Below, in pieces: positions 1,569-32,759 of a stretch of 32,889 nt of DNA; position 1 is the first letter of the stretch; the number at the start of each line of letters is the position of its first letter. The notes under the pieces are model-generated. The model had not been told where the DNA came from. It ran no database searches and saw nothing but the letters and a program-made list of their open reading frames with translations. The stretch is from assembly GCA_025362095.1 (NCBI GenBank), contig JANYIJ010000173.1, positions 1 through 32,889 of the forward strand, given 5' to 3'. A program made the translations under genes and the position numbers. This DNA is from Gemmatimonadota bacterium. Lineage in GTDB: Bacteria; Gemmatimonadota; Gemmatimonadetes; Gemmatimonadales; Gemmatimonadaceae.

Positions 1569-1606
1569 TTCTGGCTTCGTCGTTCTGCCCCCTTTGGAGA
1601 TCCCGT

Positions 1607-4516: not shown

Positions 4517-4575
4517 AGTTGAGCGACGCCTGCGGATTTCGATGATCAGGCGCCGGATGGGAACTACAACCGCAC

Positions 4576-4736
4576 CTGCTTAATCACGGATTTCACGGAT
4601 CAACGGCCGGATACTACAAAAACAAAACTATTGGGGGAACTGCCACTACGCCGGCGAGCGCAGTAGCAGTTCCCCCAAGTATTGTCGTTGCAGTTGTAGT
4701 ATCCGGCCGTCGATCGGTGAAATCCGTGTTAAGCAG
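4576..4736. repeat. Large nested imperfect palindrome (outer arms 4576-4619/4694-4736; inner arms 4631-4650/4659-4678)
   Basis: Outer arms CTGCTTAATCACGGATTTCACGGATCAACGGCCGGATACTACAA and TTGTAGTATCCGGCCGTCGATCGGTGAAATCCGTGTTAAGCAG are reverse complements with 2 mismatches and 1 indel. Inner arms TTGGGGGAACTGCCACTACG and CGCAGTAGCAGTTCCCCCAA pair with 2 mismatches. Confidence 0.9.
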
Positions 4737-4807
4737 TTCTGTTGCAGTTGCCGTATCCGATCGAATCTGCCGAGACGTATCAGGGGGAATCCGCGTTGAT
4801 CCGCAGA

Positions 4808-6247
4808 CTACGGAACCGTCTTCGCAACCGTCAGCATCTTCGTCAGCCGGTACAGAAACTCCTGGCCGTCGAAGTAGCTCTTCATGAGCATGCGCTCGTC
4901 GCGGCCGTGCGCGCGGACGTCTTCGGGATCACCCATCAATCCCGAGACGCCGTACGCCGGAATTCCGAGCACGCGGAACGGCGACGAGTCGGTCGCGCCC
5001 GTTCCCATGATCGGAACGACCGGGATGTTCCCGAACATTTGTTTGGTGACAGTCTCAACCGCACCCATCACCTCGGGAAGCAGTGGCGACGGCGCTGACG
5101 GACGCATCGCGGGCGCAGCGGAAACTTCAATCGCCGTGTCCGCGATCGCCCTCACGATCTGTGCGCGCACATCTGCCGGATCTGTGTTCGGCAGCATGCG
5201 GCAGTTGATCGTCGCGCTCGCCGTTTGCGGTAGCGCATTGGTCGCATGACCGCCGGTGAGCATCGTCGCGACGCACGTGGTGCGCAGCGTCGAGTTGTAG
5301 CGCGGATCGCGGCCGGACACCGCCGCTGACGCCGCGAGATCGTTCGGATTCCTGAGCAACGCGCGCATCGCGGCGGCGACGTCGGGACTCTCGATCGCCG
5401 CGGTGTGCTCGAAGTACGAGCGCGTCACCTCGTTGAACTGCACGGGGAAGTTGAAGTGCGAGAAGCGCACGAGGCCTTCGGACAATTCATAGATGGCGTT
5501 GTCGGGGCGCGGCACCGACGAGTGTCCGCCTCTGTTTTTTGCGGTGATGGTGAAGTTGGCGAATACTTTTTCGGTGGCCTGCACGTTGTTGAGAAACGGC
5601 TTGCCGTCCCGGAGCGATCCGCCGCCGCCCTCGTTGATCACGTACGCGGCATCGACCAGCTCGCGATGGTTCGCGATCAGCCAGCGCACGCCGTTGCAAC
5701 AGCCGCCCTCTTCATCGGCGGTGAGCGCGACGATGATGTCGCGATCCGGCACGTAGCCTTCTTTCTTGAGCCGGATGATGTTCGCGGCGAAAATCGACGC
5801 CATCGCTTTGTCGTCCGACGTTCCGCGTGCGTAAAAATATCCGTCGCGCTCGAGGAACTTGAACGGATCGAGATCGGGCGACCAATCGCTCTTCAGCGCT
5901 TCGACCACGTCGAGATGTGCGAGCAGGAGCAACGGTCTTGGCGCGGTCGCGCCGCCTCGCCCGTGGTAACGCAGCACGACGTTGAACTTCTCCGGCTTCA
6001 CGCCGCCGAGGAAAATATCGCCCTCGGCGAAGCCTGCGTCGCGGTAGCGCTTGGCGATTTGCTGCGCGGCGATCGTGGTGCCCGCCGTCATCACTGACGT
6101 GTTTGTTTCGAGCAGCTCTTTGTAGATGTCGCGAGCGGCCTGCTGGTTCGGAGTGAGCGGCGCCTGCTGCGCGCGCACCCGCGCGACGCCGGCGAAAGAC
6201 ATGGCGAGCGCGAGCGTTGCGAGGCGAATGAACGATGAAGCGCGCAT
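4808..6247 (-). CDS. Secreted M20/M25/M40-type metallopeptidase
   Basis: Signal peptide MRASSFIRLATLALAMSFAGVARVRA; motifs LLLLAHLDVVEA, ARGTSDDKAMASIFAANIIRLKKEGY, ALTADEEGGCCNGVRWL typical of M20. The longer ORF-track start at 6391 extends upstream of the signal peptide. Confidence 0.88.
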   Translation of the reverse strand: MRASSFIRLATLALAMSFAGVARVRAQQAPLTPNQQAARDIYKELLETNTSVMTAGTTIAAQQIAKRYRDAGFAEGDIFLGGVKPEKFNVVLRYHGRGGATAPRPLLLLAHLDVVEALKSDWSPDLDPFKFLERDGYFYARGTSDDKAMASIFAANIIRLKKEGYVPDRDIIVALTADEEGGCCNGVRWLIANHRELVDAAYVINEGGGGSLRDGKPFLNNVQATEKVFANFTITAKNRGGHSSVPRPDNAIYELSEGLVRFSHFNFPVQFNEVTRSYFEHTAAIESPDVAAAMRALLRNPNDLAASAAVSGRDPRYNSTLRTTCVATMLTGGHATNALPQTASATINCRMLPNTDPADVRAQIVRAIADTAIEVSAAPAMRPSAPSPLLPEVMGAVETVTKQMFGNIPVVPIMGTGATDSSPFRVLGIPAYGVSGLMGDPEDVRAHGRDERMLMKSYFDGQEFLYRLTKMLTVAKTVP

Positions 6248-6405
6248 CTCTGACTCCGGTTTGGCTGGTGGATCGATCAAGCTACGCCAAAGGTTTCCCT
6301 GTCGAGAAATCACATGACAGAAACATGACGGGTCAACATTATTAAAAGTGGTATCGTAGTCTCTCATTCCCCCGCAATGCGATTCCCCCATCGTCTGACA
6401 AGGCT

Positions 6406-9400
6406 ATGCCACGCACACGTATTCTCGCAGTACTGGGCGGCGCGACGGTTCTCCTCAGCGCCGCCGCGCAAGCGCAAACAATCGACTCCGCCTCAATCGC
6501 CGGCATGAAATGGCGTGAGCTCGGACCCGCGATCTTCGAAGGCCGCACATCCGACGTCGTCGGAATCCCCGGTCCTTCCAAAACGCTTTTCGCCGCAACA
6601 GCCGGCGGCGGCGTTTGGAAGACGATGAACAATGGCATCACCTGGCGGCCGGTGTTCGACGACAAGCGCGTCGTCTCGCTCGGCATGCTCGCGATCGCGC
6701 CGTCGGATACGCAGCAGGTGTGGCTCGGCACTGGTGAGCCCAACTCGCGCAACACGATCGAGGCCGGCGCTGGCATCTACAAGTCGACCGACGGCGGAAT
6801 TCACTGGACCTTCATGGGTCTAGAGAAGACGCAGCACATCGGCCGCGTCGTCGTGCACCCGCGCGATCCGAACACGGTTTACGTCGCGGCGCTCGGCGCC
6901 GCGTGGAAGTCGAACGCAGATCGCGGTCTCTACAAGACGACCGACGGCGGCACGACCTGGAAGCTGATCAAGTTCATCAGCGACAAGGCCGGGTTTGTTG
7001 ACGTCGCGATGGATCCGCGCGATCCGAATCACCTCTACGCAGCCGCATGGGAGCGCCTGCGCACGCCGTACTCGCTGAAGAGCGGCGGGCCGGGCTCAGG
7101 ACTCTGGACGTCGACGGACGCCGGCGCGACATGGACCGAAATCAAGGGCGGCGGTTTCCCGGAAGGCGTAAAGGGCCGCATCGGGCTCGCCATCGCGCTG
7201 AGCGATCCAAATTACATCTACGCTGAAGTCGAAGCAGCGGCGCCCACCAAGGACGGCAGCTACGTCCCGAGCCGCAATCCGGAAGGCACTGGACTCTACC
7301 GCTCGACGGACGCAGGCAAGATGTGGACGCGCATGAACACCGCCGACACGCGCCCGTTCTATTACTCGCAGGTGCGTGTCGATCCGAAGAATCGCGATCG
7401 CGTCTATTTCTCGTCGACGCAGATCCAGGTTTCCGATGACGGAGGCAAGACTGCACGGCCCGCAGCGCAGCAGGTGCACGTCGACGATCACGGGCTTTGG
7501 ATCGATCCGAATGATCCGGAGCGCTTTGTGCTTGCGAACGACGGCGGCATCTCGATTACGTTCGACAAGGGCGGAAATTTCATTCAGACGACGAACCTTC
7601 CGGTCGGACAGTTCTACGAGATTTCGTACGACAACGCGGTTCCATACAACGTGTGCTCAGGCGCGCAGGACAACGGCGCGTGGTGCGGCCCGAGCCGCCG
7701 CAAAGCGGGCGGAGTGCCGAATGCGTACTGGCAGACGATTTCCGGCGGCGACGGTTTCTACACGGCGCAGGATCCGACAGACCCGAGCATCGTCTATGGT
7801 GAATCGCAGGGCGGCAACGCGTCGCGGCTGAACCTGAAGACCGGCGAGCGGATGAACTTCGCGAAGCCGTCGTGGCAGGACCGCTACAAGTGGTGGGAGG
7901 ATTCGATCGCTGTCGTGCGCGGCGATCCGCTCAAGGCCGAGACCAAGCCGATGACCACCGCGCTGAATGCGCTGAAGGCGCAGCAGAAGCAGGATTCGAT
8001 CGACCTCTCGCTGCGCTTCAACTGGAACTCGCCGTATTTCCTCTCGCCGCACAATCCGTCGGTGATCTACTTCGCCGGCAACCGTGTGCTGAAGTCGATG
8101 AAGCGCGGCGAAGATTTCCAGCTGATTTCGCCGGACCTCTCCAAGAAGCAGTGGGCCAAGATCGACACCTCCGTCACGTGGACGGGTGGCGTCACGATCG
8201 ACGCGACGGGCGCCGAGACGTTCGGCACCGTGGTCGCGCTGATGGAATCGTATGTGAAGCCGGGGCTGCTCTATGCCGGCACCGACGACGGCAACGTCTG
8301 GAAGACGCACAATGACGGCGCGTCGTGGGAAAATCTCACCACGCACTTCCCGGGACTGCCGACCGATTCGTGGGTCTCGCGCATCGAGCCTTCGCATTTC
8401 GACACGCTGACGTTCTACGTGACGTTCGAAGACCATCGCGTCAACGACTTCACGCCGTATGTGTACGCGACGAACGACGGAGGAAAGACGTTCCGCTCGA
8501 TCGTGAGCGATCTCCCGAAGGATGGAGTCGCGGATTTCGTGCACGTGATTCGTGAGGATCCGTTCAATCGCGATCTGCTGTTCGTCGGTACGTCGCTGAG
8601 CGTCTATGCGTCGATCGATCGCGGCGCGCACTGGACGAAGTTCGCGTCGAACCTTCCGTCGGTCGCAGTCTACGATCTCAAGATTCATCCGCGCGATCAC
8701 GAGCTGATGGCCGCGACACACGGTCGCAGTCTGTGGGCGGTGGATATCGTGCCGATCGAGCAGTACACGGCCAAGACGCTCACCGCGTCGGCCGCGTTGT
8801 TCGAGCCGAAGACCGCGCTGCAGTACGGTGAAGGTCCGACGCTTTCCGCGCAGGGCAACGGCAACGCGCAGCAGTTCTTCTCGGTGGCGAGCCCGCCGTA
8901 CGGCGCGGAGATCTCGTATCGTCTCGCGACCGCGGCGAGCGGACCAGTTCGCATTTTCGTGAGCGATGCGCGCGGTGACACGCTCGCAACGCTCAACGGC
9001 TCGGGAACGGCCGGCGTGCACACGGTGGTTTGGAATTTCCAGGGTGCGCGTCGCGTGGCGCCGGTTGTGGAAATGCTCTCCGCGTCGGAACGCCGCGACA
9101 GCATTCTGAAGGCGGTTCGCGCGCCGATGGTTCTCGATTCACTGAAGAAGGCTGGATTCGATACCGTCGCGGTGGCGAGAGTGCGCACGCTGCTGAGCGC
9201 GACGGCTCCGGCGCCGCAGGGCGGGCGCGGCGGCGGCGGTGGAGGTGGTGGTGGCGGCCGCGGCACGATCAACTGCGACCATCCGATGACGCAGTGGGAA
9301 CCGTTCTGCGCGCGTCCGGGTGAGGGCGAAGCGGGTGGCGGCGGCGGCGGTGGTGGTTTCGGACGCGGAGGTGCGGGACCGGAGTCGGCCAACGTCGTGA

Positions 9401-9636
9401 AGATCTACGGCATCATCGGGCTGAAGGCGCCGGGTGGTGGGGGTCGCGGCGGTGGTGGTGGGGGCGGACGCGGCGGCGCAGCAGGCCGCGGGTCCGTGGT
9501 CGCGGGCACGGGTGAATATCTCGTGACGATGACGGTCGGGGGGCAGACGTTCAAGCAGGTCTTGAAAGTCGAGCGCGTGACTGGAGTAGATGATTCGGCG
9601 AATCAATTCGGCGGGGTGCCGGAAAAGCAGCCATAG
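6406..9636 (+). CDS. Sortilin/VPS10 or BNR-repeat-type beta-propeller protein, secreted, with glycine-rich C-terminal linkers
   Basis: Signal peptide MPRTRILAVLGGATVLLSAAAQAQ; repeated S/TTDGGxTW blades (KSTDGGIHWTF, KTTDGGTTWKL, TSTDAGATWTE, ATNDGGKTFRS). Confidence 0.88.
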   Translation: MPRTRILAVLGGATVLLSAAAQAQTIDSASIAGMKWRELGPAIFEGRTSDVVGIPGPSKTLFAATAGGGVWKTMNNGITWRPVFDDKRVVSLGMLAIAPSDTQQVWLGTGEPNSRNTIEAGAGIYKSTDGGIHWTFMGLEKTQHIGRVVVHPRDPNTVYVAALGAAWKSNADRGLYKTTDGGTTWKLIKFISDKAGFVDVAMDPRDPNHLYAAAWERLRTPYSLKSGGPGSGLWTSTDAGATWTEIKGGGFPEGVKGRIGLAIALSDPNYIYAEVEAAAPTKDGSYVPSRNPEGTGLYRSTDAGKMWTRMNTADTRPFYYSQVRVDPKNRDRVYFSSTQIQVSDDGGKTARPAAQQVHVDDHGLWIDPNDPERFVLANDGGISITFDKGGNFIQTTNLPVGQFYEISYDNAVPYNVCSGAQDNGAWCGPSRRKAGGVPNAYWQTISGGDGFYTAQDPTDPSIVYGESQGGNASRLNLKTGERMNFAKPSWQDRYKWWEDSIAVVRGDPLKAETKPMTTALNALKAQQKQDSIDLSLRFNWNSPYFLSPHNPSVIYFAGNRVLKSMKRGEDFQLISPDLSKKQWAKIDTSVTWTGGVTIDATGAETFGTVVALMESYVKPGLLYAGTDDGNVWKTHNDGASWENLTTHFPGLPTDSWVSRIEPSHFDTLTFYVTFEDHRVNDFTPYVYATNDGGKTFRSIVSDLPKDGVADFVHVIREDPFNRDLLFVGTSLSVYASIDRGAHWTKFASNLPSVAVYDLKIHPRDHELMAATHGRSLWAVDIVPIEQYTAKTLTASAALFEPKTALQYGEGPTLSAQGNGNAQQFFSVASPPYGAEISYRLATAASGPVRIFVSDARGDTLATLNGSGTAGVHTVVWNFQGARRVAPVVEMLSASERRDSILKAVRAPMVLDSLKKAGFDTVAVARVRTLLSATAPAPQGGRGGGGGGGGGGRGTINCDHPMTQWEPFCARPGEGEAGGGGGGGGFGRGGAGPESANVVKIYGIIGLKAPGGGGRGGGGGGGRGGAAGRGSVVAGTGEYLVTMTVGGQTFKQVLKVERVTGVDDSANQFGGVPEKQP

Positions 9637-19276: not shown

Positions 19277-21613
19277 ATGGCGAATCCGCTCGGCGCGCTG
19301 TTCGCGTTCTTCTTCAAGTACCGGCCGGCGGTCTTCCAGCAGGGAGATTTCGCATTTGGCGCACCCGCGCCGATCGCGATTCTGCTGCTTGTCGGCGCGG
19401 CAATCACGGTGCCGGCAATGCTGAGCTATCAGCGCGTGCGCGGCAAGAGCTCTGAGCGGGACCGGTGGATTCTTCGCGGCCTGCGCATCGCGGCGCTCGC
19501 CGTGCTCCTCGTGTGCCTCCTGCGGCCGATGCTCCTGCTCAACGCCGCGGTGCCGCAGCGCAACTACGTCGGCGTGCTCATCGACGATTCTCGAAGCATG
19601 CAGATCGCGGATCGTGGCGGTCGTCAGCGCGCGGACTGGATTCGAGACTCGGTCTCGGCACCGAAGGCCGCGCTCATCGCCGCGCTGCGCGAACGCTTTC
19701 AAGTGAAGCTGTTTCATTTCGGCGCGAGCGCCGAGCGCATCGACGACGCCGGCGGCCTCAAGTTCGACGCGAACGAAACGAAACTCGGCGGCGCGCTTGA
19801 AGCCGCGAGGCGCGAGCTGGAGATGGTTCCGGTTTCCGGTCTGGTGCTGCTGACGGACGGCGCGGATAATTCCCGCGCGCCTATTGCGGACGAACTGCTC
19901 TCGCTCCGCGCGAAGCAGGTGCCCGTGTTCACCGTGGGAATCGGGTCGGAGCGCTTCTCTCGCGATATCGAAGTTCGCCGGGTGGAAGCGTCGAGCGCGG
20001 TGCTGAAGGGAAGCACGCTCGTCGCCGACGTGCTGGTGCGGCAGCGCGGATTTAATGGAGCGAAAGTGCCGCTGATGATCGAGGATGACGGGCGGCTGAT
20101 CGGACAGTCCGAGATCACGCTGCCACCAAACGGCGACGTTGCACCGGTGCGCGTGCAGGTGCGGATGTCGAGCCCGGGCGCGCGCCTGCTCACTTTTCGG
20201 ATTCCGCTTCAGCAGGGCGAGCAGGTCACACAGAACAACGCCCAGCAGGCGCTCGTGCGCGTGCGCAACGCGCGTGAGAAAATTCTATACGTCGAGGGTG
20301 AGCCGCGCGAGGAGATGCGCTTCATCCGCGCGGCCGTCGAAGCCGATTCGAATCTTCAGCTCGTCGCGCTCCAGCGGACGGCCGACAGGAAATTCCTGCG
20401 GCTGAACGTCGATGGTCCCGAGGAACTCGCCGCCGGCTTTCCCATCACCCGCGGCGAACTCTACGCGTATCGCGCGATCGTGCTCGGCAGCATCGAGGCG
20501 AGCTTCTTCACGCACGCGCAGCTCGCGATGCTCGCGGATTTCGTGAACGTGCGCGGCGGCGGCCTGCTGATGCTCGGAGGCCGGCGCGCGTTTGGTGAAG
20601 GAGGCTATGCGGGCACACCGCTCGCGGACGTGATGCCGGTGGTGATCGAAGGGAACGCGACGGGCGACAGCGTGTCGTTCCTCGCGGATCTCACCGCGTC
20701 GCTGACACCGGGCGGGGCCTCGAACGCCGTCACGCAGGTGGCGGGGGAATATTTGAAATCCGCGGAGCGCTGGAGAACGCTGCCGGCGGTGACATCGGTG
20801 AACCGCATTCGCCGCGTGAAGCCCGGCGCTGTCACGCTCGTCGATGGCAAGGTTCCGAAGGGCGGCCGCGCAGGCGTGCCCGCGGGAGAGCAGCTTCGCG
20901 GATACGAGCAGCCGCTGCTGGTCTATCAGCGATACGGGCGCGGTCTCTCGGTGGCGATGCCGATTCAGGATTCCTGGACCTGGGCGTTCGCCGCGGAGAT
21001 TCCCGTGGACGATCCGACGTTCCCCACGCTCTGGAAACAGCTGCTGCGATTTCTCACCGCGGATGTTCCGGGGCGCGTGACGGTGCACGCGCAGGCGGAT
21101 CAGGTGAACCCACGCACGCCCGTGGACCTGCGCGCGGAGGTCGCGGACAGCGCGTTCCTCACGGTGAACGACGCGCAGGTCGTGGCGCACGTTGCGGGGC
21201 CGGCCGGGCCGGTGCGCGATGTGCCGCTCGAGTGGGCCGTCGATCGCGATGGCGAGTACCGCGCTTCGTTCACACCCGAGACGCCGGGGATTTACACCGT
21301 GCGCATCGACGCGATGGCTCGCGATGGCAAGATCACGAGTGACTCGCTGTTCGTGCGCGTCGCGGATCTCAACGCGGAGTATGTGGACGCCGAGATGCGC
21401 GCGGCGCTGCTCCAGCGGCTGGCGCGCGAAACCGGCGGCCGGTTCTACACTCCCGAAACCGTGGGCACGCTCGCAGCCGATGTCGCGATGAGCAAGCGCG
21501 GCGTGACGGTCGCGAACGAGATGGATTTGTGGGACATGCCGGTGAACTTTCTGCTGCTCGTGACGTTGCTGAGCGCGGAATGGGGCTATCGAAAGCTGCG
21601 GGGCCTCGCATGA
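19277..21613 (+). CDS. Membrane protein with VWA domain and GATase1-like domain
   Basis: N-terminal TM helices; MIDAS-type motif LIDDSRSMQ (DxSxS) and LLTDGADNS; GATase-like VNVRGGGLLMLGGRRAFGEGGYAGTPLADVMPVVIEG; C-terminal TM. Confidence 0.82.
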   Translation: MANPLGALFAFFFKYRPAVFQQGDFAFGAPAPIAILLLVGAAITVPAMLSYQRVRGKSSERDRWILRGLRIAALAVLLVCLLRPMLLLNAAVPQRNYVGVLIDDSRSMQIADRGGRQRADWIRDSVSAPKAALIAALRERFQVKLFHFGASAERIDDAGGLKFDANETKLGGALEAARRELEMVPVSGLVLLTDGADNSRAPIADELLSLRAKQVPVFTVGIGSERFSRDIEVRRVEASSAVLKGSTLVADVLVRQRGFNGAKVPLMIEDDGRLIGQSEITLPPNGDVAPVRVQVRMSSPGARLLTFRIPLQQGEQVTQNNAQQALVRVRNAREKILYVEGEPREEMRFIRAAVEADSNLQLVALQRTADRKFLRLNVDGPEELAAGFPITRGELYAYRAIVLGSIEASFFTHAQLAMLADFVNVRGGGLLMLGGRRAFGEGGYAGTPLADVMPVVIEGNATGDSVSFLADLTASLTPGGASNAVTQVAGEYLKSAERWRTLPAVTSVNRIRRVKPGAVTLVDGKVPKGGRAGVPAGEQLRGYEQPLLVYQRYGRGLSVAMPIQDSWTWAFAAEIPVDDPTFPTLWKQLLRFLTADVPGRVTVHAQADQVNPRTPVDLRAEVADSAFLTVNDAQVVAHVAGPAGPVRDVPLEWAVDRDGEYRASFTPETPGIYTVRIDAMARDGKITSDSLFVRVADLNAEYVDAEMRAALLQRLARETGGRFYTPETVGTLAADVAMSKRGVTVANEMDLWDMPVNFLLLVTLLSAEWGYRKLRGLA

Positions 21614-22617
21614 TTGTTACCGCTCGCCGCTATCAGCTCCTGCTCACCGCATTCGGTTTTTCCTTTGCGGTTTGCAGTCTTCACGCTCAAACGCGTGTGG
21701 TCATCGTCTCCGGACTCGGCGGCGAACAGCAGTACTCGACGCAGTTCGCAGCACAGGCGCAAACACTCGCTTCTGCGCTGCACGATCGCTTCGGTGTGCC
21801 CGACTCGAACATCGTCTGGTTCGGCGAAGACAGCGTCAGCCGCGCGCGCTATTTCCGCGGGCAGTCCACCAAGCCGATCGTCGAGAAAGCGATCTTGGGC
21901 GTAGCGGCGCGTGCAGAGCCGGCATCGCAGTTCGTCCTCGTGCTGATCGGCCACGGCGCGGGTGAAGGTCCACAGACTCGAATCAGCATTCCCGGCCCGG
22001 ACCTCGACGGAAATGATTTCGCGCGTCTCCTCGCCGCGTTTCCCACGCAGCGCGTCGCGTTCATCAACCTCACGAGCGCCAGCGGTGACATGATCGCCAC
22101 CGTCGCCGGCGCGCACCGCGTGATCATCACTGCCGCGAAGACGGCGTTTGAGCGCAACGAGTCGCATTTCGCACAGTACTTCGTGGAGGCGTTCGCGAAG
22201 GATGGCGCCGACAGTGACAAGGACGGCCGCGTCTCGCTGCTCGAGGCGTTCCGCTACGCCGCGCTCGAGACGAAGCGCTTTTACGATAAAGGCGGCCTGA
22301 TGCAGACAGAGCACGCCCAGCTCGCGGACGATGGTGCCAAGGAGGGGAGTGGTGATCCCACGGGCCGGGCGGGCGACGGCGCACTCGCGCGCCGGTTCTT
22401 CATGGACGGCGGCAAAGTTGCGACGCTCGCGGCCGGCAGTGATCCGCGCCTCTCCGGCCTGTACGCCGAGGAGTTCACGCTGCAGGAACAGATCGACCAG
22501 CTGCGGGCGAAAAAAGCGCAGATGCCTTCGGACGCGTACGATGCTGCGCTCGAGCCCTTGCTCATTTCGCTGGCGCGAAAGGCGCGCGAGATTCGCGCGC
22601 TGGAGGGGCGGCAGTGA
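21610..22617 (+). CDS. Secreted caspase/legumain-fold-like protein lacking a catalytic Cys (predicted pseudoprotease)
   Basis: ATGA overlap with the upstream gene; signal peptide; caspase-like order: VVIVSGLGG, ALHDRFGVPDSNIVWFGED, FVLVLIGHGAGEG (His-Gly), VAFINLTSASGDMI (position of the DxCxSG Cys), FAQYFVEAFAKDGADSDKDGRVSLLEAFRYA. Confidence 0.7.
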   Translation: MIVTARRYQLLLTAFGFSFAVCSLHAQTRVVIVSGLGGEQQYSTQFAAQAQTLASALHDRFGVPDSNIVWFGEDSVSRARYFRGQSTKPIVEKAILGVAARAEPASQFVLVLIGHGAGEGPQTRISIPGPDLDGNDFARLLAAFPTQRVAFINLTSASGDMIATVAGAHRVIITAAKTAFERNESHFAQYFVEAFAKDGADSDKDGRVSLLEAFRYAALETKRFYDKGGLMQTEHAQLADDGAKEGSGDPTGRAGDGALARRFFMDGGKVATLAAGSDPRLSGLYAEEFTLQEQIDQLRAKKAQMPSDAYDAALEPLLISLARKAREIRALEGRQ

Positions 22618-25034
22618 GGGCGCACGCAATGATCGCAGCACTGGCGGCGCTGCTCCCGGCTGCCGCGCTCGGCGCGCAGAACGCGCTCGGAGAATCGCTG
22701 CTCTCGCACGGCAGGATCGCTGCGGCCGAAAGCGCGTTCGTCCGCGCGATCGCCGATCACGCGCCCGACAGCCTCATGGCATCGGTGAATCTCGCGCGCC
22801 TTCATTTCAATCGCGGCGAGCGCGACCGCGCGATGAAGGAGTTCGACCGGTTCATCGACGTCTACAACAACGCGGGCGGAACGCTCACGAGCACCGAGTT
22901 GACCGCAGTCGGCATCGCGTGCCAGTACCTCGGCCGCGATCGGCCCGACCTGTTCAAGGACGCACTTAAGGCGTTCGATCGCGCGATCATGCTCGATCCG
23001 GCGAACCTCCATGCGAAAATTGCGGTCGGCGAGCTCTTCCTCGAGAAGTACAACAGCGCTGACGCGCAGACGGCGTTCGAGGAGGTGCTCGCTGCGAACC
23101 CGAAGGAGCCGCGCGCACTGCTCGGCGAAGCCAAGCGCCGTATCTTCGATTCGCGGCCCGGCGTAGACTCGTTGATCAGCCGGGCGCTCGAAATCAATCC
23201 GAATTTTTCGGAAGCGCACATCCAGCGAGCGCAGATGCTGCTGGAGATCGAGGAATACGCGCCTGCACAGAAGGAAGTGGAGCGAGCGCTCGCAATCAAC
23301 CCGGCGAGTTCTGAAGCGCTCGCAGTTCAAGCGGCCATCCGGTATGTGACGGGCGACACGAAGGGCTACGAAGAGACGCGTCAGCGCGCGCTCGCGCTCA
23401 ATCCGGCGAACGCCGAGTTCTATGTCACGATGTCGTCTGCGGCGAGCCGGATCCGTCTGTACGCGGTTGCCGCGTCGTTCGCGCTGCAGGGCATCGAAGC
23501 TGATCCCAAGAATTGGGAGGCGCATGCCCTGCTCGGCATGAACCAGCTGCGGCTCGGCAAAATGAAGGAGGGTCGCAGCAGCCTTGAGGCGTCATTCCTC
23601 GGCGATCCGTACAGCGTGTGGATCAAGAATACCCTCGACTTGCTCGACACCTTCGGCAACTATGATGAAGTCGCCGACGGCAAGTACACGACGATGATCG
23701 AGAAGAGCGAATCCCAGCTGTTCTCGATCTATTTGCGCGATCTGTCCGAGCGCGCGTACGCGACGTTCCAGCAGCGTTATCAGTTCACGCCGCCACCGCC
23801 GATTCGCATCGAGGTGTATAAGAGCCACGCGGATTTCTCGGTGCGAACTGTAGGTCTCGCGGGACTTGGCGCGCTCGGCGTGAGCTTCGGGACCACGCTC
23901 GCCTTCGATTCGCCGGCTGCTAAAGACGCGGGGCCGTTCAACTGGGGCTCCACCGTTTGGCACGAACTCGCGCACACATTTACACTCGGCCTCACCGAGC
24001 AGCACGTGCCGCGCTGGCTGTCAGAAGGATTGTCGGTTTACGAAGAGCATCACGCGCGTCCCGGCTGGGGCTCGAACGTGAGCGTCGAGTTCCTCGACGC
24101 GTTTACCGCCGGGAAGCTGGTGCCCGTGAGCCGGATGAACGACGGATTCATGCGCCCTGCGTATCCGGAGCAGGTGATTCTCTCATATCATCAAGCATCG
24201 GTGGTGTGCGATCTCATCGCGCGCGATTACGGTGAGAAGGCGCTGCTGCAGATGCTGCTCGAGTACAAGGCCGGACACACCACGGCAGAGGTGTTCCAGA
24301 AGGTCTTCGGCATGGATCTCAAAGCGTTCGACAAGAAATTCGACGCGTACATGCGCGAGCGATATGCCGGACCGCTCGCCGCGCTGAAGGATTCGTTGAA
24401 GGCCGGAACCGAAACCCCGGCGGCGGAGCTGCTCGCTCAGGCGAACGCATTGCCGCGCAGTTATCGCATTCAAATGTTGGCCGCCGTCACGCTCGCGAAA
24501 GCGGGGCAAGTGGACGCCGCGATCACGCTGCTCGAGCGCGCACGCGATCTTTTTCCGGAGTATGGCGGCACCGACAGCCCATACGCCGGCCTCGCTGCGC
24601 TCTACACCACGAAGGGCGACACCAAGAAGGCAACGGAGGCGCTCTCGCAGTACGTGCTGCACAACGAGACAGACTATCCGCTGCATCTCGAACTGGCCAA
24701 GCTCAGGACCGCTGCGGGCGACAAGGCGGGCGCCGCCGATGCGCTCGATCGCGCGCTGTACATCGATCCATACGACATCGCGGTGCACCAGCAACTCGCT
24801 GAGCTGTTTCAAGGGGTTGGCGACAAGGCGAAAACGGTGCGTGAGCGCCGCGCGGTAGTCGCGCTTGTTCCTGCCGACAAATCGGAGTCGTACTACCAGC
24901 TCGCGCTCGCGTATCATGAAAACTCAGAAGATCTGAACGCGCGCAAGACGCTGCTTCGCTCGCTCGAGGAAGCGCCGAACTATGTGAAGGCGCAGGAACT
25001 GCTGCTGCAGATCGTCGATGGAAAGAAACCCTAA
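22614..25034 (+). CDS. Secreted TPR-repeat protein with gluzincin (peptidase MA-like) domain
   Basis: GTG start overlapping the upstream stop (ATG at 22629 alternative); several TPR-like units; HELAHTFTLGLTEQHVPRWLSEGLSVYEE = HExxH plus downstream WLSEG Glu. Confidence 0.82.
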   Translation: MRAHAMIAALAALLPAAALGAQNALGESLLSHGRIAAAESAFVRAIADHAPDSLMASVNLARLHFNRGERDRAMKEFDRFIDVYNNAGGTLTSTELTAVGIACQYLGRDRPDLFKDALKAFDRAIMLDPANLHAKIAVGELFLEKYNSADAQTAFEEVLAANPKEPRALLGEAKRRIFDSRPGVDSLISRALEINPNFSEAHIQRAQMLLEIEEYAPAQKEVERALAINPASSEALAVQAAIRYVTGDTKGYEETRQRALALNPANAEFYVTMSSAASRIRLYAVAASFALQGIEADPKNWEAHALLGMNQLRLGKMKEGRSSLEASFLGDPYSVWIKNTLDLLDTFGNYDEVADGKYTTMIEKSESQLFSIYLRDLSERAYATFQQRYQFTPPPPIRIEVYKSHADFSVRTVGLAGLGALGVSFGTTLAFDSPAAKDAGPFNWGSTVWHELAHTFTLGLTEQHVPRWLSEGLSVYEEHHARPGWGSNVSVEFLDAFTAGKLVPVSRMNDGFMRPAYPEQVILSYHQASVVCDLIARDYGEKALLQMLLEYKAGHTTAEVFQKVFGMDLKAFDKKFDAYMRERYAGPLAALKDSLKAGTETPAAELLAQANALPRSYRIQMLAAVTLAKAGQVDAAITLLERARDLFPEYGGTDSPYAGLAALYTTKGDTKKATEALSQYVLHNETDYPLHLELAKLRTAAGDKAGAADALDRALYIDPYDIAVHQQLAELFQGVGDKAKTVRERRAVVALVPADKSESYYQLALAYHENSEDLNARKTLLRSLEEAPNYVKAQELLLQIVDGKKP

Positions 25035-25046
25035 CCGGAAAATCAC

Positions 25047-26078
25047 GTGGCCGCGAACGATACGAGCCCAGCTCTCGAGTCCTCCGACGACATTGCGCAT
25101 GCTGACCGGCTGAAGGCCGGCTGCGATCAGATCCGCACGGAACTGCGCAAACTCATCGTCGGTCAGGAGGGCGTGATCGAGCTGATCCTGCTTTCGATCC
25201 TCACCGGCGGCAACAGTCTGGTGATCGGCGTGCCGGGTCTCGCGAAAACGCTGTTGATCAACACGTTCGCGAAAGCGCTCGATCTCAAATTCGCGCGCAT
25301 CCAGTTCACGCCCGATCTGATGCCGAGCGACATCACCGGCACGGAGATCATTCAGGACGATCCGGAGACCGGGCGGCGTCACATGGTATTCGTGCCCGGC
25401 CCGATCTTCGCGAACATCGTGCTCGCCGACGAAATCAACAGAACGCCGCCAAAAACGCAGGCGGCTCTGCTCGAGGCGATGCAGGAACATCGCGTGACGG
25501 TGCAGGGGCAGACGTACACGCTGAAGGAACCGTTCTTTGTGTTCGCGACGCAAAACCCGATCGAGCTCGAAGGCACGTATCCGCTTCCTGAAGCGCAGCT
25601 TGACCGCTTCATGTTCGAAATCGTGATCGACTACCTCACCGAGAATCAGGAAGTGGACGTGGTGCTCTCGACCACATCGGTGCAAAAGCACGAGTTCAAG
25701 CACGCGGTGACGGGCGCGGACATCGCTGCGTTCCAGCAGCTCGTGCGCCGCGTGCCAGTGGCCGACGCCGTTGCGCGATACGCGGTGAACATCGCACGCA
25801 CGAGCCGTCCAGGGCCGAACGCGCCTGATTTCGTGAAGCAGTGGGTCTCATACGGCGCGAGCGTTCGCGCGCCGCAGCACCTGATCCTCGGCGGCAAGGC
25901 GCGCGCGCTGATGCAGGGCCGCTATCACGTGAGCTTCGACGACATTCGCGCGCTGGCAAAGCCGGTGCTACGGCACCGCGTGCTGCTGAACTTCCATGCC
26001 GAATCTGAGCGTATCACATCTGATGTTGTGATCGACAAGCTGCTGGCGGCAGTGCCGGTGCCGCGGTCGGGGATGTGA
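25047..26078 (+). CDS. MoxR-family AAA+ ATPase
   Basis: IVGQEGVIELILLSILTGGNSLVIGVPGLAKTLLINTFAKAL, RIQFTPDLMPSDITGTEI, VLADEINRTPPKTQAALLEAMQEHRVT, FATQNPIELEGTYPLPEAQLDRFMF. Confidence 0.96.
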   Translation: MAANDTSPALESSDDIAHADRLKAGCDQIRTELRKLIVGQEGVIELILLSILTGGNSLVIGVPGLAKTLLINTFAKALDLKFARIQFTPDLMPSDITGTEIIQDDPETGRRHMVFVPGPIFANIVLADEINRTPPKTQAALLEAMQEHRVTVQGQTYTLKEPFFVFATQNPIELEGTYPLPEAQLDRFMFEIVIDYLTENQEVDVVLSTTSVQKHEFKHAVTGADIAAFQQLVRRVPVADAVARYAVNIARTSRPGPNAPDFVKQWVSYGASVRAPQHLILGGKARALMQGRYHVSFDDIRALAKPVLRHRVLLNFHAESERITSDVVIDKLLAAVPVPRSGM

Positions 26079-27022
26079 GCGCAGAGACGCTGCTCGACCC
26101 AAGCGTTCTCGCCCGGATCGGCAATTTGGAGCTCCTGGCGCGCACGGTGGTGGACGGATTCGTGAACGGCCTGCACCGGTCGCCACATCTCGGCTCGTCC
26201 ACGGATTTCGCCGAGCATAGGTCGTACATGCCCGGCGACGACATCCGCGGCATTGATTGGCGGCTGTTCGCGCGGAGCGACCGCTATTACGTGAAGCAGT
26301 TCGAGGCGGAGACAAACACGAACTTTGTGGTTCTGCTCGACGTTTCGCCGTCAATGCGCTATCGCGGGGCGACCGAAGGACCTGGCAGCGTGGGCAAGCT
26401 CGACTACGGCATTTATCTGGCTGCGGCCCTCACGTATTTCTCGAGCAAGCAGCGCGATCGTGTAGGACTGGCGACTTTCGATGACGATATAGTCGAGTAC
26501 GTGCCGCCCTCGGCGAAGCACCTGCGGCTCGTGCTGCACGCGCTCGAGCGGACCACCACTCGCGCGGAAGCCGTTGCTGCTCCGGAGGCCGGCAAATCCA
26601 CGCGCTCCTTCACGCTCGAGGAACCGCTCAAGAAGCTGTCGGAGTCGCTGCGCCGCCGGAGTATCGTACTGCTGATTTCCGATCTGTACGAGGAGCCCGA
26701 CGCCGTGATTTCCGCGCTGGCGAATGTGCGCGGCCGCGGCAACGACGTCATCATCTTTCACTTGCTTGACCGAACCGAACTCGATTTTCCATTTTTGGAC
26801 GCGACGAACTTCGTCGATCTCGAGACCGGCGAGAAAATGCCGGTGATACCCGAATATCTGCGGACGCAGTACCGTGAGGTCGTCGCGACGCACACGGCCA
26901 CGCTCGCCCGCCGCATGCAGGAGCAGCGGCTCGACTACGCGCTGTTCGACACGTCCAAGCCGCTCGACAAAGCGCTCTTCACTTACCTGCTGGCGCGCGA
27001 GCGCTTCAGCACCGCGCGCTAA
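26075..27022 (+). CDS. DUF58 domain (VWA-like) protein
   Basis: HLGSSTDFAEHRSYMPGDDIRGIDWRLFARSDRYYVKQFEAETNTNFVVLLDVSPSMRY is diagnostic of DUF58; GTG start overlapping the moxR stop. Confidence 0.95.
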   Translation: MSAETLLDPSVLARIGNLELLARTVVDGFVNGLHRSPHLGSSTDFAEHRSYMPGDDIRGIDWRLFARSDRYYVKQFEAETNTNFVVLLDVSPSMRYRGATEGPGSVGKLDYGIYLAAALTYFSSKQRDRVGLATFDDDIVEYVPPSAKHLRLVLHALERTTTRAEAVAAPEAGKSTRSFTLEEPLKKLSESLRRRSIVLLISDLYEEPDAVISALANVRGRGNDVIIFHLLDRTELDFPFLDATNFVDLETGEKMPVIPEYLRTQYREVVATHTATLARRMQEQRLDYALFDTSKPLDKALFTYLLARERFSTAR

Positions 27023-27030
27023 AGACGAAC

Positions 27031-29130
27031 ATGGGACTGCTCGCGCCGGCATTTCTCGCAGGCCTGCTCGCGATCGGAATTCCGATCGCCATTCACTTGA
27101 TCAATCGCGAGCGGCGCGTGGTGGTGCAGTTCCCGTCGCTGATGTTCCTGCACAAGATTCCGTACCGTTCGATCCGCCGGCAGAAACTCCGGCACATTCT
27201 TCTTCTCGCGATGCGCTGCCTTGCGCTCGTGCTGCTGGTCGCGGCATTCGCGCGGCCTTTCCTGCAGCGGCACAGCGCCGGAACATCGTCGCTCCTCGGC
27301 GCGCGCGAGCGGGTCGTGCTCGTCGACCGCTCGTACAGCATGGGCTATTCCGACCACTGGAAGCGCGCACTCGATGCGGCCCGTGCCGCGACGCGCGGCC
27401 TCGCCGGGAATGACCGCGCTACGATCGTGTTCTTTGCGAACGATCCAGTCGCGGCCACCGAGCCGACCGCGAATCCGGCGCGTCTCGAGCGTGCCATCGC
27501 GGCGGCGAAGCTCAGCTCTGAGGGAACCCGTTACGAGCCCGCGCTGAAACTCGCCGCACAGATTCTCTCGGCGTCGAATCTTCCGCGGAAGGAAGTCGTG
27601 ATGATCAGCGACTTTCAGCGCGTGGGGTGGGGGCGGCGTGACGACATCCAGCTTCCCTCCGGCGCCTCGATGACGGCCGTCGATGTCGGCGGCTCGTCGC
27701 CCGCATCCGATCTCGCGGTCACGCAGGTTTCGACGGACCGCGACCGCGTAGGCGAGCGCGATCGAGTCACCGTCACCGCGCGCGTCACGAACGTCGGTGC
27801 AGTGGCGCGGACCGTAGACGTCACGCTCGATCTCGGCGGTCGCGCGGTGGAAACGAAGAAACTCACCGTCGCGCCGAAGGGTGTTGGACAAGCGCGGTTC
27901 ACGCCGAACGCAGTTCCCACGAGCGCCACTCGCGGCACCGTGCGCATCACGCACGACTCTCTGCCGCAGAACGATGCGTTCAATTTCACACTCACGCCGG
28001 GCGAGGCAGTGTCTGTGCTGGTGGTGCAGCCGTCGAAGCCGCGCGCAAACCAGAGCTTGTTCGTGAGCCGCGCGCTCGCCATCGGCGATCGGCCGGCATT
28101 TCATGTCGATGTGAAATCCGAGGATGCGCTTCGCGCACAGGATTTCTTGGCACGATCGCTCGTGGTTCTCGACGAGGTGCCCCCACCTGCGGGAGCGCTC
28201 GGCGCGAAGCTGCGCGAGTCGATTCTCGCCGGTACCGGCCTCCTCGTGGTCCCGGGCGATCTCGCGTCGGGCCGCTGGAGCACCGAGTGGCGCCCGTTGA
28301 TGCCCGCTACGCTTGGCTCGGTGATCGATCGCACACGCGATGCGGGCGCGACCGTCGCCTCCGTGGACTACGGCCATCCTGTGTTCGAGCTCTTCTCCGC
28401 GCCGCGGAGCGGAGATTTTTCGACGGCGCATCTGTTCCGCTACCGGCAGCTCGTCGCGCGCGGCGACACAGGGGTGATCGCGCGCCTCGATGACGGCGCG
28501 CCAGCGCTCGTCGAAAAGACGGTGGGCGCCGGGAAGGTGCTCATGTGGGCGTCGTCGCTCGACGAATACTGGACCGACCTTCCGCTCCAACCCGTATTTC
28601 TGCCGTTCGTGCACGCGCTCGCGAAATACGCCGGACGTTTCGGCGACGCGCGTGGCTGGTTCGTGGCGGGCGATGTACTCGACCTCTCACGCCACGGTGA
28701 ACTCACCGCGCCTTTCGTCGCCGATGCGGGGGCCGGCGCCGCGGGCGATGCGCCGCTCGTGCTCGAATCGCCATCCGGCCACCGCACGCCGCTCACGGCG
28801 TCTGGCGCGGAGCATTTGTCGACGCTTTCGGAGCAGGGCTTCTACGAATTGCGCGGACCAGGCACTGCGGCCGGCAGCGGGCGTCCCATAGCCGTAAATG
28901 TCGATCCGAAGGAATCGGACCTCGCGCGATTCGATCCGAACGAGCTCGTGGCGGCTGTCACGGCGACGCCGGGCACGGGCGCGCCCGCATCCGGAACTGC
29001 CGCCGCACCGTCCGAGCTGGAACGCGGACAGACCATATGGTGGTATCTTCTAGTGGTCGCCTTGCTGCTGATGGCCGCGGAGACGGTTCTTTCGAATCGC
29101 CTCTCGAAGGCCGAGGTGCAGTCAATGTGA
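27031..29130 (+). CDS. BatA-type N-terminal domain and VWA domain membrane protein
   Basis: N-terminal MGLLAPAFLAGLLAIGIPIAIHLINRERRVVVQFPSLMFL...RRQKLRHILLLAMRCLALVLLVAAFARPFL typical of BatA; MIDAS-like LVDRSYSMGYSD; C-terminal TM. Confidence 0.9.
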   Translation: MGLLAPAFLAGLLAIGIPIAIHLINRERRVVVQFPSLMFLHKIPYRSIRRQKLRHILLLAMRCLALVLLVAAFARPFLQRHSAGTSSLLGARERVVLVDRSYSMGYSDHWKRALDAARAATRGLAGNDRATIVFFANDPVAATEPTANPARLERAIAAAKLSSEGTRYEPALKLAAQILSASNLPRKEVVMISDFQRVGWGRRDDIQLPSGASMTAVDVGGSSPASDLAVTQVSTDRDRVGERDRVTVTARVTNVGAVARTVDVTLDLGGRAVETKKLTVAPKGVGQARFTPNAVPTSATRGTVRITHDSLPQNDAFNFTLTPGEAVSVLVVQPSKPRANQSLFVSRALAIGDRPAFHVDVKSEDALRAQDFLARSLVVLDEVPPPAGALGAKLRESILAGTGLLVVPGDLASGRWSTEWRPLMPATLGSVIDRTRDAGATVASVDYGHPVFELFSAPRSGDFSTAHLFRYRQLVARGDTGVIARLDDGAPALVEKTVGAGKVLMWASSLDEYWTDLPLQPVFLPFVHALAKYAGRFGDARGWFVAGDVLDLSRHGELTAPFVADAGAGAAGDAPLVLESPSGHRTPLTASGAEHLSTLSEQGFYELRGPGTAAGSGRPIAVNVDPKESDLARFDPNELVAAVTATPGTGAPASGTAAAPSELERGQTIWWYLLVVALLLMAAETVLSNRLSKAEVQSM

Positions 29131-29147: not shown

Positions 29148-32100
29148 ATGGATAGCGTACACGGATTCGCGGCAGAACAGGGGCAGCTCGCAGGCGTCGT
29201 GAGCGGCGTGCGCAATCGCTGGCGCCTCAAGCACGCGCTGCACGGCGCGACCATCACGGTTGCGATCGGCTTCGCCGTTCTCGCGCTCTCGGCATACATC
29301 ACGCGTGCGCTGCACTACGGCGACGCATCGCTTTGGATCTTCCGGTTGATTTCGCTCGCGGCGATCGTCGCCTGCGTCATTCGATTCATTGTGAAACCTG
29401 TGCGCGCGACACCGCGCGATGCGCAGGTTGCGCTGTACATCGAGGAGCACGAGTCATCGCTCGAAGGCGCAGTGATCACGGCCGTGGATGTGCACGCATC
29501 CGGCGCCGCCGCCGCGCGTTCTCCGGCGCTCGTGGGCCGCCTGCTGCGTTCGGCGCTCGATCGCGTGCGCCGTCTCGATGGCGGCCGCACCGTAGACGCG
29601 AACGATCTCCAGCGCACGACGATGATTTTTGCCGCAGTGACCGCGGCTGCTGTGAGCTTCGGCCTGTTCGGTCCCGCAGTGCTCCGCCACGGACTCGGTC
29701 TCATGCTCGTGCCGTGGGGCGACGCGAATCCGGCGGGTGTCTTTTCGATCGCCGTGAAGCCGGGCAATGCGACGATCGCGAAGGGCGGCGACCAGATGGT
29801 CACCGCGTCGCTCAAGGGCTTCAATGCCGCGCGTGTCGATCTTCTCCTGCGCTCCGCCGATTCTTCGGAGTGGACCCGCGTGACGATGACCGCCGACAGC
29901 GCCGGCCGATTCAATTACCGCCTTTTTGATTTGGCGAAAGTCACGGAATATTCGGTGGAGGCGAGCGGCGTGCGCTCGCCGGTGTATCGGCTCGACATCG
30001 CAGATCTCGCGTTCGTGAAGCGGCTCGATCTCGAGTATCGCTATCCGGCGTACACGCAACTTCCGAATCAGCACGTCGACAGCACGGGCGACATCGCGGC
30101 GCTGAAGGGCACGATGGTGCGAGTGCGCGTCACGCCCACGCGCGCGACGAACGGCGGCCGTGTGATCGTGCAGGGCGGCGACACGCTGCAGCTCGCGCGC
30201 ACCGCGGACGGCGCGCTCATCGCGATGATCAAGGTGGAGCGCGAGGGATTCTACAAAGTGGAACTGCAGGGTCCGGACGGCCGGATGGTCACGGGTTCGC
30301 TCGACTACACGATCGACGCGCTTCCCGATCGCCCGCCCACGGTGAGTTTCACCAAGCCGGGCCGCGACTTGAAGGTTCTCTCGGTGGATGAAGTCTTCAC
30401 CGAGGCGCGCGCGCAGGACGACTATGGCGTCGCGAAATTCGAACTCGTGTACTCGGTCAACGGAGCGGCGGAAAAAGCTCTTCCGCTTTACTCCGCCGCT
30501 GGAAAGAACTCGCGCGATATCTCGGTCGGGCACACGTTCATGCTCGAGAACGAGCACCTCGTGCCCGGCGACTTGGTCTCATATTACGCGCGTGCCACCG
30601 ACAACAACGCGGTGAGCGGAGCGCAGACGGCCACCACGGATATCTATTTCCTCCAGGTGCGCCCGTACGGTCAGGACTACCGCCAGCAGCAGGGCGGCGG
30701 TGGCGGCGGTGGCGGCGGTGGCGGCGGCGGTCGCGGTCAACAGGATCCGGGCCCGCTCTCTGAGCGTCAGCGTCAGGTGATCGCCGCGTCGTTCAACACG
30801 GCGAGGGACAGCGCGAAGCTCGCCAAACAGGCGCTCGAGGAAAACCTTGCCACGCTTCGCCTTTCACAGCAGAAAGTTCGCGAGGAAGTCGAGCAGCTGG
30901 CCAAACGTCTGGTCGATCGCGGAATCGCAGCGAGCGATTCGAGCTGGAAGAAGATTTCGCAGATCCTTCCCAAGGCTGCGGCCGAGATGGACAGCGCTGA
31001 GAAGCTTCTCTCGAAGGGCACGCCTCACGATGCGCTCGGGGCGGAGCAGCGCGCGCTGGTGCAGCTCCAGCGTGCCGAGGCCGTGTTCCGCGACATTCAG
31101 GTTTCGATGGGTGGTGGAGGCGGCGGTGGAGGAGGCGGCGGAGGCGGAGGCGCCAAGGCGCAGGATCTCGCCGACATCTTCGAGCTGCAGAAGGACAAGA
31201 TGCGGAATCAGTACGAGGCGGTGCAGCGCGGGCAGGATCAGCAGGCGCAGGAGAAGAGCGCCGCGTCGCAGGTGGATGAAACGCTCGACAAGCTCAAACA
31301 GCTCGCCCAGCGCCAGCAGCAGGAAGACGAACGGATGCGCCGCAAGGCGGACAGCCTTCGTCAGCCAGGCGCGAGCGGCGCTTCCAACGGCGACGGCCAG
31401 CGCGAGCTCGCCGCGCAGACCGAGCAGGCTGCGCGCCAGCTCGAGCGGCTCGCCCGCGAGAAACAGTCGCAGGCGCTCGCCGATGCAGCGCGGAAACTTC
31501 AGGAAGCCGCGAATTCAATGAAGCTGGCGGCGGCGAACGGAAAGAGCGGCGGCGCAGAGTCGAGGAACGCGAACGATCGTCTGGCCGATGCGCGCCGACT
31601 GCTCGAGCAGGAGAAAACTACGGGCGCGCAGCGCGGGCTGAGCGACGTGCAGAAGAGCGCGCAGAAACTCTCCGAGCAGGAGAAGCAGGTCGCGAACGAT
31701 GTCGCGAAACTCGGCGAACAGGGTGCAAACTCACAGACGCCGCAGGGCCAGCAGGAGAAGCAGGCGCTTCAGCGATCGCTCTCTGCGGAGAAGGGTGCGA
31801 TGGCCGATTCGCTGCGCGATCTCACGAAACGAATCGATCAACTCGCGGGAGAGCAGTCGCGTTCGCAGCCCGGCGCGGCTCGCGCGCTTGGCGAAGCGGC
31901 GGACTCACTGCGCTCCAAACGGATCGAAGATCGCATTCGTGCGTCGCAGCAGCAGCTCGGCCAGGCATCGCAGCAATATCTCGATAATCTCGAGCGCTCG
32001 ATCGGCGACGGCCTAAGCGATCTCGGACAGCGGTTGCAGAAAGCGGGCGAGGCGTCGAATCAGGCGTCGGGCGGGCAGCGCCAGCAGCAGGCGCTCGACC

Positions 32101-32759
32101 GGATGCGCGATCTCGTGCGAGGATTGGAAACGCTTGATGATCGCGTAAAGCAGCAGCAACAGCAGGGGCAGCAGGGGCAGCAAGGGCAGCAGGGGCAACA
32201 GGGGCAACAAGGGCAACAAGGGCAACAAGGGCAACAAGGGCAACAAGGGCAAAAGGGTCAGCAAGGCCAAGGTCAGGGTCAGGGCCAAGGTCAGGGCGGC
32301 GGCCGCGGACAAGGGCAGCAAAGCGCGCAGGGCAATGGTCGCGGCGGTGGCAACCGTCTCGGCAACGGCACCGTCGCGCAGGGCGGCCCGGGCGGCAATC
32401 GTCTTTCACAGAACGACTCGCGTCAGTTCTCCGCCGAGATGCAGCAGCGCATTCGCGACGCGCAGGCGGTGCGCGATGACCTCGCGAAGCAGGGCACCGA
32501 TGTCTCCGCGCTCGATCGCGCGATGGAAGCGATGCGCGCCGCTGCGAATCAGGAAAACCTCGCGGACGCGAAGACCGGCGGTGAACTGCGCACGCAGGTG
32601 ATCGACGGACTCAAGGCGTACGAGTTTGCGCTGCGCCGCGCGATCGAAGGGAAGGACAGCGGCCAGGTGCTCTCGGGCCGCACCGGCGATGTTCCGCTCG
32701 AATTTCGCGCCTACGTCGAGGAGTATTATCGTTCTATAGCGCGGCCCAAGCCGCGCTGA
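29148..32759 (+). CDS. DUF4175-like large membrane protein with coiled coil and Gly/Gln-rich repeats
   Basis: N-terminal TM pair, Ig-like extracytoplasmic segment (LPDRPPTVSFTKPGRDLKVLSVDEVFTEARAQDDYGVAKFELVYSVNG), long Q/K/E-rich coiled coil, poly-Gly tracts, GQQ repeat, C-terminal LEFRAYVEEYYRSIARPKPR. Position after BatA fits the family. Confidence 0.82.
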   Translation: MDSVHGFAAEQGQLAGVVSGVRNRWRLKHALHGATITVAIGFAVLALSAYITRALHYGDASLWIFRLISLAAIVACVIRFIVKPVRATPRDAQVALYIEEHESSLEGAVITAVDVHASGAAAARSPALVGRLLRSALDRVRRLDGGRTVDANDLQRTTMIFAAVTAAAVSFGLFGPAVLRHGLGLMLVPWGDANPAGVFSIAVKPGNATIAKGGDQMVTASLKGFNAARVDLLLRSADSSEWTRVTMTADSAGRFNYRLFDLAKVTEYSVEASGVRSPVYRLDIADLAFVKRLDLEYRYPAYTQLPNQHVDSTGDIAALKGTMVRVRVTPTRATNGGRVIVQGGDTLQLARTADGALIAMIKVEREGFYKVELQGPDGRMVTGSLDYTIDALPDRPPTVSFTKPGRDLKVLSVDEVFTEARAQDDYGVAKFELVYSVNGAAEKALPLYSAAGKNSRDISVGHTFMLENEHLVPGDLVSYYARATDNNAVSGAQTATTDIYFLQVRPYGQDYRQQQGGGGGGGGGGGGGRGQQDPGPLSERQRQVIAASFNTARDSAKLAKQALEENLATLRLSQQKVREEVEQLAKRLVDRGIAASDSSWKKISQILPKAAAEMDSAEKLLSKGTPHDALGAEQRALVQLQRAEAVFRDIQVSMGGGGGGGGGGGGGGAKAQDLADIFELQKDKMRNQYEAVQRGQDQQAQEKSAASQVDETLDKLKQLAQRQQQEDERMRRKADSLRQPGASGASNGDGQRELAAQTEQAARQLERLAREKQSQALADAARKLQEAANSMKLAAANGKSGGAESRNANDRLADARRLLEQEKTTGAQRGLSDVQKSAQKLSEQEKQVANDVAKLGEQGANSQTPQGQQEKQALQRSLSAEKGAMADSLRDLTKRIDQLAGEQSRSQPGAARALGEAADSLRSKRIEDRIRASQQQLGQASQQYLDNLERSIGDGLSDLGQRLQKAGEASNQASGGQRQQQALDRMRDLVRGLETLDDRVKQQQQQGQQGQQGQQGQQGQQGQQGQQGQQGQQGQKGQQGQGQGQGQGQGGGRGQGQQSAQGNGRGGGNRLGNGTVAQGGPGGNRLSQNDSRQFSAEMQQRIRDAQAVRDDLAKQGTDVSALDRAMEAMRAAANQENLADAKTGGELRTQVIDGLKAYEFALRRAIEGKDSGQVLSGRTGDVPLEFRAYVEEYYRSIARPKPR
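32151..32300 (+). repeat. 9-nt tandem repeat (CAACAAGGG-type) encoding Gly-Gln-Gln/Gly-Gln repeats
   Basis: Five identical CAACAAGGG units at 32205-32249, flanked by variant units (CAGCAGGGG, CAGCAAGGG, CAACAGGGG, CAAAAGGGT). Confidence 0.95.

Follow-up and report, generated by a model that had tools for sequence, protein, structure and literature searches.

A secreted clan CD-like protein that lacks the catalytic cysteine is conserved within a MoxR/VWA operon of Gemmatimonadota

What can a caspase-like protein do in an envelope operon once its catalytic cysteine is gone? The question is raised by a gene in a 32,889-nucleotide stretch of a Gemmatimonadota genome (contig JANYIJ010000173.1, analyzed whole and called the window here). 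The original prediction had described its product as a secreted pseudocaspase with an EF-hand-like loop, encoded among MoxR and VWA genes. We found every motif on which that proposal was built in the 335-aa translation of the plus-strand ORF (Table 1): VVIVSGLGG spans residues 30-38, FGVPDSNIVWFGED residues 61-74, FVLVLIGHGAGEG residues 108-120, and VAFINLTSASGDMI residues 149-162. The ORF also has a longer in-frame start, GTG at 21529; ATG at 21610 is preferred, as it yields a signal peptide and agrees with the homologues. The homologues have similar N-termini, which supports the proposed secretion. The translation also confirmed that C22, inside the signal peptide, is the sole Cys of the protein.

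Table 1. Features of the cysteine-less gene and its operon (window coordinates)
Feature	Position	Strand	Basis or remarks
Membrane-anchored VWA protein	19277..21613	+	Two TM helices near start, MIDAS DDSRS, GATase1-like region
Cys-less secreted clan CD-like protein, 335 aa	21610..22617	+	Translation, profile and Foldseek searches
Signal peptide, residues 1-27, cut near LHA/Q	21610..21690	+	Read from sequence; homologue N-termini similar
H115-G116, counterpart of catalytic His-Gly	21952..21957	+	Kept in 115/115; aligned to metacaspase/caspase-like catalytic His
S156-A-S158-G159, S156 at catalytic Cys position	22075..22086	+	hhalign; C-x-S-G in active relatives
EF-hand-like loop DSDKDGRVSLLE, residues 201-212, between two predicted helices	22210..22245	+	Pattern in 117/118 homologues
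C-terminal helical hairpin, residues 279-332, Y310 and E315 invariant	22444..22605	+	
Secreted TPR protein with gluzincin peptidase	22614..25034	+	HELAH...E site intact
MoxR AAA+ ATPase	25047..26078	+	PF07726, E 2.8e-61
DUF58 VWA protein	26075..27022	+	MIDAS DVSPS
BatA-like VWA protein	27031..29130	+	MIDAS DRSYS
DUF4175 membrane protein	29148..32759	+	Pfam; syntenic

Performing profile searches, we checked the fold. The window protein scored 16.9 bits against the Pfam family Peptidase_C13 (PF01650), below its curated cut-off of 22.8. The same family was matched by 17 of 39 diverse homologues (best E 2.4e-7), and several homologues exceeded the curated cut-off in whole-genome scans. Peptidase_C14 was matched by one of the 39, weakly, and we are unsure about placing the Cys-less protein in the C14 p20 domain. 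The single window sequence gave no match against the PDB by phmmer and none in an NCBIfam scan. Using the profile of the 39 homologues against the PDB, we retrieved plant metacaspase-4 (E 5.5e-4), the catalytic His-Gly of which falls on H115-G116.

AlphaFold2 models were made for two close sequences, the window protein and its relative L031. Their confidence was low (pLDDT 51.9 and pTM 0.47; 59.7 and 0.61 for the core domain), so atomic detail, pocket shape, and metal geometry should not be taken from models in this range (pLDDT 52-60). Even so, Foldseek placed metacaspases, legumains, and caspases first. Of the 50 best hits to the core model, 49 were metacaspases, legumains, or GPI8-type proteins (best E 1.6e-4, probability 1.00). 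The TM-scores on the query were modest (about 0.34-0.53), as one would expect from models this poor. The protein thus has the clan CD fold of the caspase-hemoglobinase type. The caspase/legumain-type layout first read from the sequence is the one on which profile searches, hhalign, and Foldseek with these low-confidence models agree.

The equivalence of the active-site positions was checked by hhalign against clan CD proteins that retain the Cys; these were taken from the window's phylum and, in addition, from an archaeal plasmid. Nine caspase-like members of this set, all Cys-type and from the phylum, aligned to the family with a probability of 98.1 (P 7e-14), pairing the catalytic His with H115 and the Cys of C-x-S-G with S156. 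Two C13-type proteins gave the identical pairing (probability 96.4), while a reversed-sequence control scored 0.4. Both assignments made at the outset, of IGHG as the catalytic His-Gly and of LTSASG as the site where Ser or Thr replaces Cys, are therefore upheld.

We then counted residues among 118 non-redundant homologues from one class of Gemmatimonadota, 115 of which cover residue 156. This position holds Ser in 103, Thr in nine, Pro in two, Asp in one, and Cys in none, while H115, G116, S158, and R170 are invariant in all 115. A Cys anywhere beyond residue 40 occurs in just three of the 118. The loss of Cys is clade-wide, and the census rules out a recent loss in the window genome alone. 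On a maximum-likelihood tree, Ser is the common state at residue 156, and seven changes are inferred. Read from the labels of the tree, five are from Ser to Thr, one is to Pro in a clade that comprises two genera, and one, in a single genome, is to Asp; there is no change to Ala, Gly, or Cys. Judged from these sequences, a hydroxyl residue is favored at position 156, but two lineages manage without it. Since these keep H115, a nucleophile would be dispensable there. The sequences with Pro (L106 and L104) and Asp (L044) also retain the EF-hand-like loop and offer natural controls. Ser156 is encoded by AGY, one step from the TGY of Cys, in 97 of 103 cases; S158 is biased alike, so the codon bias at 156 is discounted as evidence. 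S158 was also considered as a displaced nucleophile and rejected, because in active relatives the same position is simply the Ser of C-x-S-G, and this explains its invariance without catalysis.

The EF-hand-like loop was the other unusual feature of the original prediction, which had taken it as a pointer to a Ca2+-responsive role. The canonical pattern stood. Its ligand positions 1, 3, 5, 9, and 12 are D201, D203, D205, S209, and E212, lying between predicted helices at residues 186-198 and 210-226. D201 and E212 are each kept in 117 of 117 homologues, while Gly at loop position 6 occurs in just 74 of 117. A strict EF-loop pattern arose in 22 of 200,000 shuffles of the window protein. The loop probably binds Ca2+. 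Its use as a sign of a new role did not stand: the pattern is present in eight of the 11 Cys-type relatives compared (L051, for one, has DANSNGRISARE and L163 has DTNSDGRISATE), and profile alignments place it equivalently, so the loop is inherited rather than a mark of new function. Further along, at residues 239-246 (window 22324-22347), the window protein has a degraded segment, LADDGAKEG, where relatives carry a second acidic, metal-binding-looking loop, LDDDGDGxG.

How tightly is the gene bound to its neighbors? The gene shares an ATGA overlap (21610-21613) with the VWA gene upstream and a GTGA overlap (22614-22617) with the TPR-gluzincin gene downstream, as first described. Comparing 20 loci of about 19 kb each, spread across the window's class, we found the VWA gene immediately upstream of the Cys-less gene in all 20. 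The order VWA, Cys-less gene, TPR-gluzincin, MoxR, DUF58, BatA, DUF4175 was kept, mostly or entirely, in 19. Genomes of one family (f5) have insertions between the Cys-less gene and the TPR gene, which in one case lie about 20 kb apart. The VWA gene remains adjacent despite these insertions, and this makes the VWA protein the likeliest direct partner. Among the 118 genomes of the window's taxonomic family, 53 have both genes and 62 have neither; the three with the VWA gene and no Cys-less gene show partial matches in fragmented assemblies. The Cys-less gene and its operon are co-inherited in conserved order.

A few loci depart in detail. A DUF4159 gene precedes MoxR in most relatives; it is missing from the window (25034-25047) and from two members of the window's clade, L031 and L052. 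At L112 (G198), about 3040-3483, the C-terminal half alone, from the EF-like loop onward, lies beside the TPR gene in a stretch where no VWA gene was found; this may be a half-length version that occurs naturally, or a copy in decay. Elsewhere in the window, at 1391-9636, a large Sortilin-Vps10-type protein (6406-9636) is encoded near two peptidases, an S9 prolyl oligopeptidase (1391-4516) and, on the minus strand, one of the M20 type (4808-6391); all are ordinary.

Within the phylum, 151 of 298 genomes were found to encode a member of the family, every one belonging to the window's own class; the search at profile sensitivity was confined to this phylum, so the family may extend wider. Scanning genome contigs, we found one relative, in a Gemmatimonadetes MAG, with 82% identity, while the viral contigs searched gave none. 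Plasmid-borne spread was considered and rejected. The sole plasmid copy found (L164) lies on the 1.1-Mb megaplasmid of Gemmatirosa kalamazoonensis (NZ_CP007129.1), a member of Gemmatimonadaceae; this is an unusual site for a conserved envelope operon. In G016, its VWA partner adjoins it.

We propose, with a probability of roughly 0.6, that the protein is a periplasmic pseudoprotease, probably Ca2+-binding, with a binding role as one subunit of a MoxR/VWA envelope machine. The replacement of Cys by Ser would predate the divergence of the sampled family members, with the core, including the His, otherwise retained. The protein would consist of a periplasmic clan CD domain followed by a C-terminal helical hairpin, and its former substrate groove, braced by the inherited Ca2+-type loop, may bind a peptide or a partner protein in place of peptidase activity. 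As a subunit, it would keep a fixed place next to the membrane-anchored product of the VWA gene directly upstream, within a MoxR/DUF58/BatA envelope complex that MoxR may power from inside. A gluzincin peptidase would be exported too; as its HELAH...E site is intact, the TPR-gluzincin is the likely working peptidase.

The strongest counterpoint comes from the former active site itself. The strict retention of H115, the hydroxyl at residue 156 in 112 of 115 homologues, and the five Ser to Thr changes among seven amount to a constraint that exceeds the needs of a pure scaffold. These same facts, together with the retained S158-G159 of the C-x-S-G motif and the lack of any change to Ala, Gly, or Cys, would suit an enzyme, a hydrolase or transpeptidase still active with Ser/Thr156 as the nucleophile and H115 as its activator; it would be a serine-type member of a cysteine-peptidase clan. 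We regard this, the chief alternative, as unlikely. Two genera carry Pro at residue 156 and one genome carries Asp, in proteins otherwise intact, which shows that a nucleophile is not universally required, and the Ser hydroxyl may persist merely for a hydrogen bond to the His. Moreover, we know of no clan CD member with a Ser nucleophile. The fuller claim, that a Ser/Thr nucleophile was adopted at the base of the family and that the periplasmic protein is still catalytically active, is slightly less likely again; if true, it would be the first serine-type clan CD enzyme known to us. The protein is probably a binding part of the machine and less likely a serine-based enzyme.

Two other roles were weighed. 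The loop might act as a Ca2+ sensor, reshaping with periplasmic Ca2+ and thereby switching the MoxR/VWA machine. Conservation of its five ligand positions (117 of 118) and the helices on both sides fit such a sensor. We still consider it distinctly improbable: Cys-type relatives have the loop at the equivalent place, the Gly at position 6 is variable, and a steadily Ca2+-rich exterior would better suit a structural site. Alternatively, the protein might belong to a MoxR-vWA conflict system directed against invaders, for instance one of the VMAP type, and serve there as the inactive caspase effector. Those systems also join MoxR and VWA with a dead caspase-fold component, and about 70% of the caspase domains in their effector position are inactive (PMC7159879). 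The present operon differs in that Pfam finds no VMAP, iSTAND, FtsH, or beta-propeller third component among its genes. The Cys-less protein is extracytoplasmic, carrying a signal peptide, and its slow-evolving core and fixed gene order across the class are unlike a hypervariable effector. PADLOC found nothing in the six operon proteins tested, on which ground the defense-system reading was set aside; we hold it to be very improbable.

A binding subunit of this kind would bear on a long-standing question, the function of MoxR/VWA envelope operons. The protein offers a handle, being small and soluble, with a fixed partner gene and natural Ser, Thr, Pro, and Asp variants. With it, one may ask what periplasmic MoxR/bat-type machines bind, and also whether activity can ever survive in clan CD once Ser has taken the place of Cys. 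Dead bacterial caspases are already known, mostly as sporadic substitutions or as effectors in the cytoplasm. In the present family, a secreted form free of Cys, its His untouched, is maintained by members spread over an entire bacterial class and is locked to a MoxR/VWA envelope operon.

How does it compare with known relatives and operons? We know of no caspase-fold gene or TPR-gluzincin in the bat operon of Leptospira or the RL3499-RL3502 operon of Rhizobium. Peptidase family C13 (legumain/GPI8; PF01650) gives the best Pfam match and shares the core strand order, the His-Gly, and the x-x-S-G turn; its prokaryotic Cys-type members, bacterial and archaeal (L051 and L163), share the EF-hand-like loop as well. 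The window protein differs in lacking the catalytic Cys and in scoring under the Pfam cut-off. Pseudo-orthocaspases, which make up 858 of 9,994 orthocaspase sequences, mostly from Alphaproteobacteria and Cyanobacteria, likewise combine a prokaryotic caspase fold with a substituted His-Cys dyad, are presumed inactive, and form conserved clades (PMC6426788). Their hallmark is a double change, to Tyr at the His and to Ser at the Cys, and they were noted as absent from reaction-centre-bearing Gemmatimonadetes (PMC6426788). In the present family, by contrast, the His is invariant and Cys alone is replaced, and the gene, whose product is secreted, keeps to a MoxR/bat-like operon. As for the operon, MoxR and BatA-type VWA genes also stand together in the bat operon of Leptospira (PMC3557215) and in Rhizobium RL3499-RL3502 (cited in PMC3893208), for which a periplasmic complex or a role in envelope integrity has been proposed. 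Deletion of the bat genes in Leptospira biflexa gave no clear phenotype (PMC3557215), and the Rhizobium RL3499 MoxR protein is described, in work cited in PMC3893208, as having an important part in cell morphology and in the integrity of the membrane. The Gemmatimonadota operon differs from both in adding to this common set a caspase-fold gene and a TPR-gluzincin.
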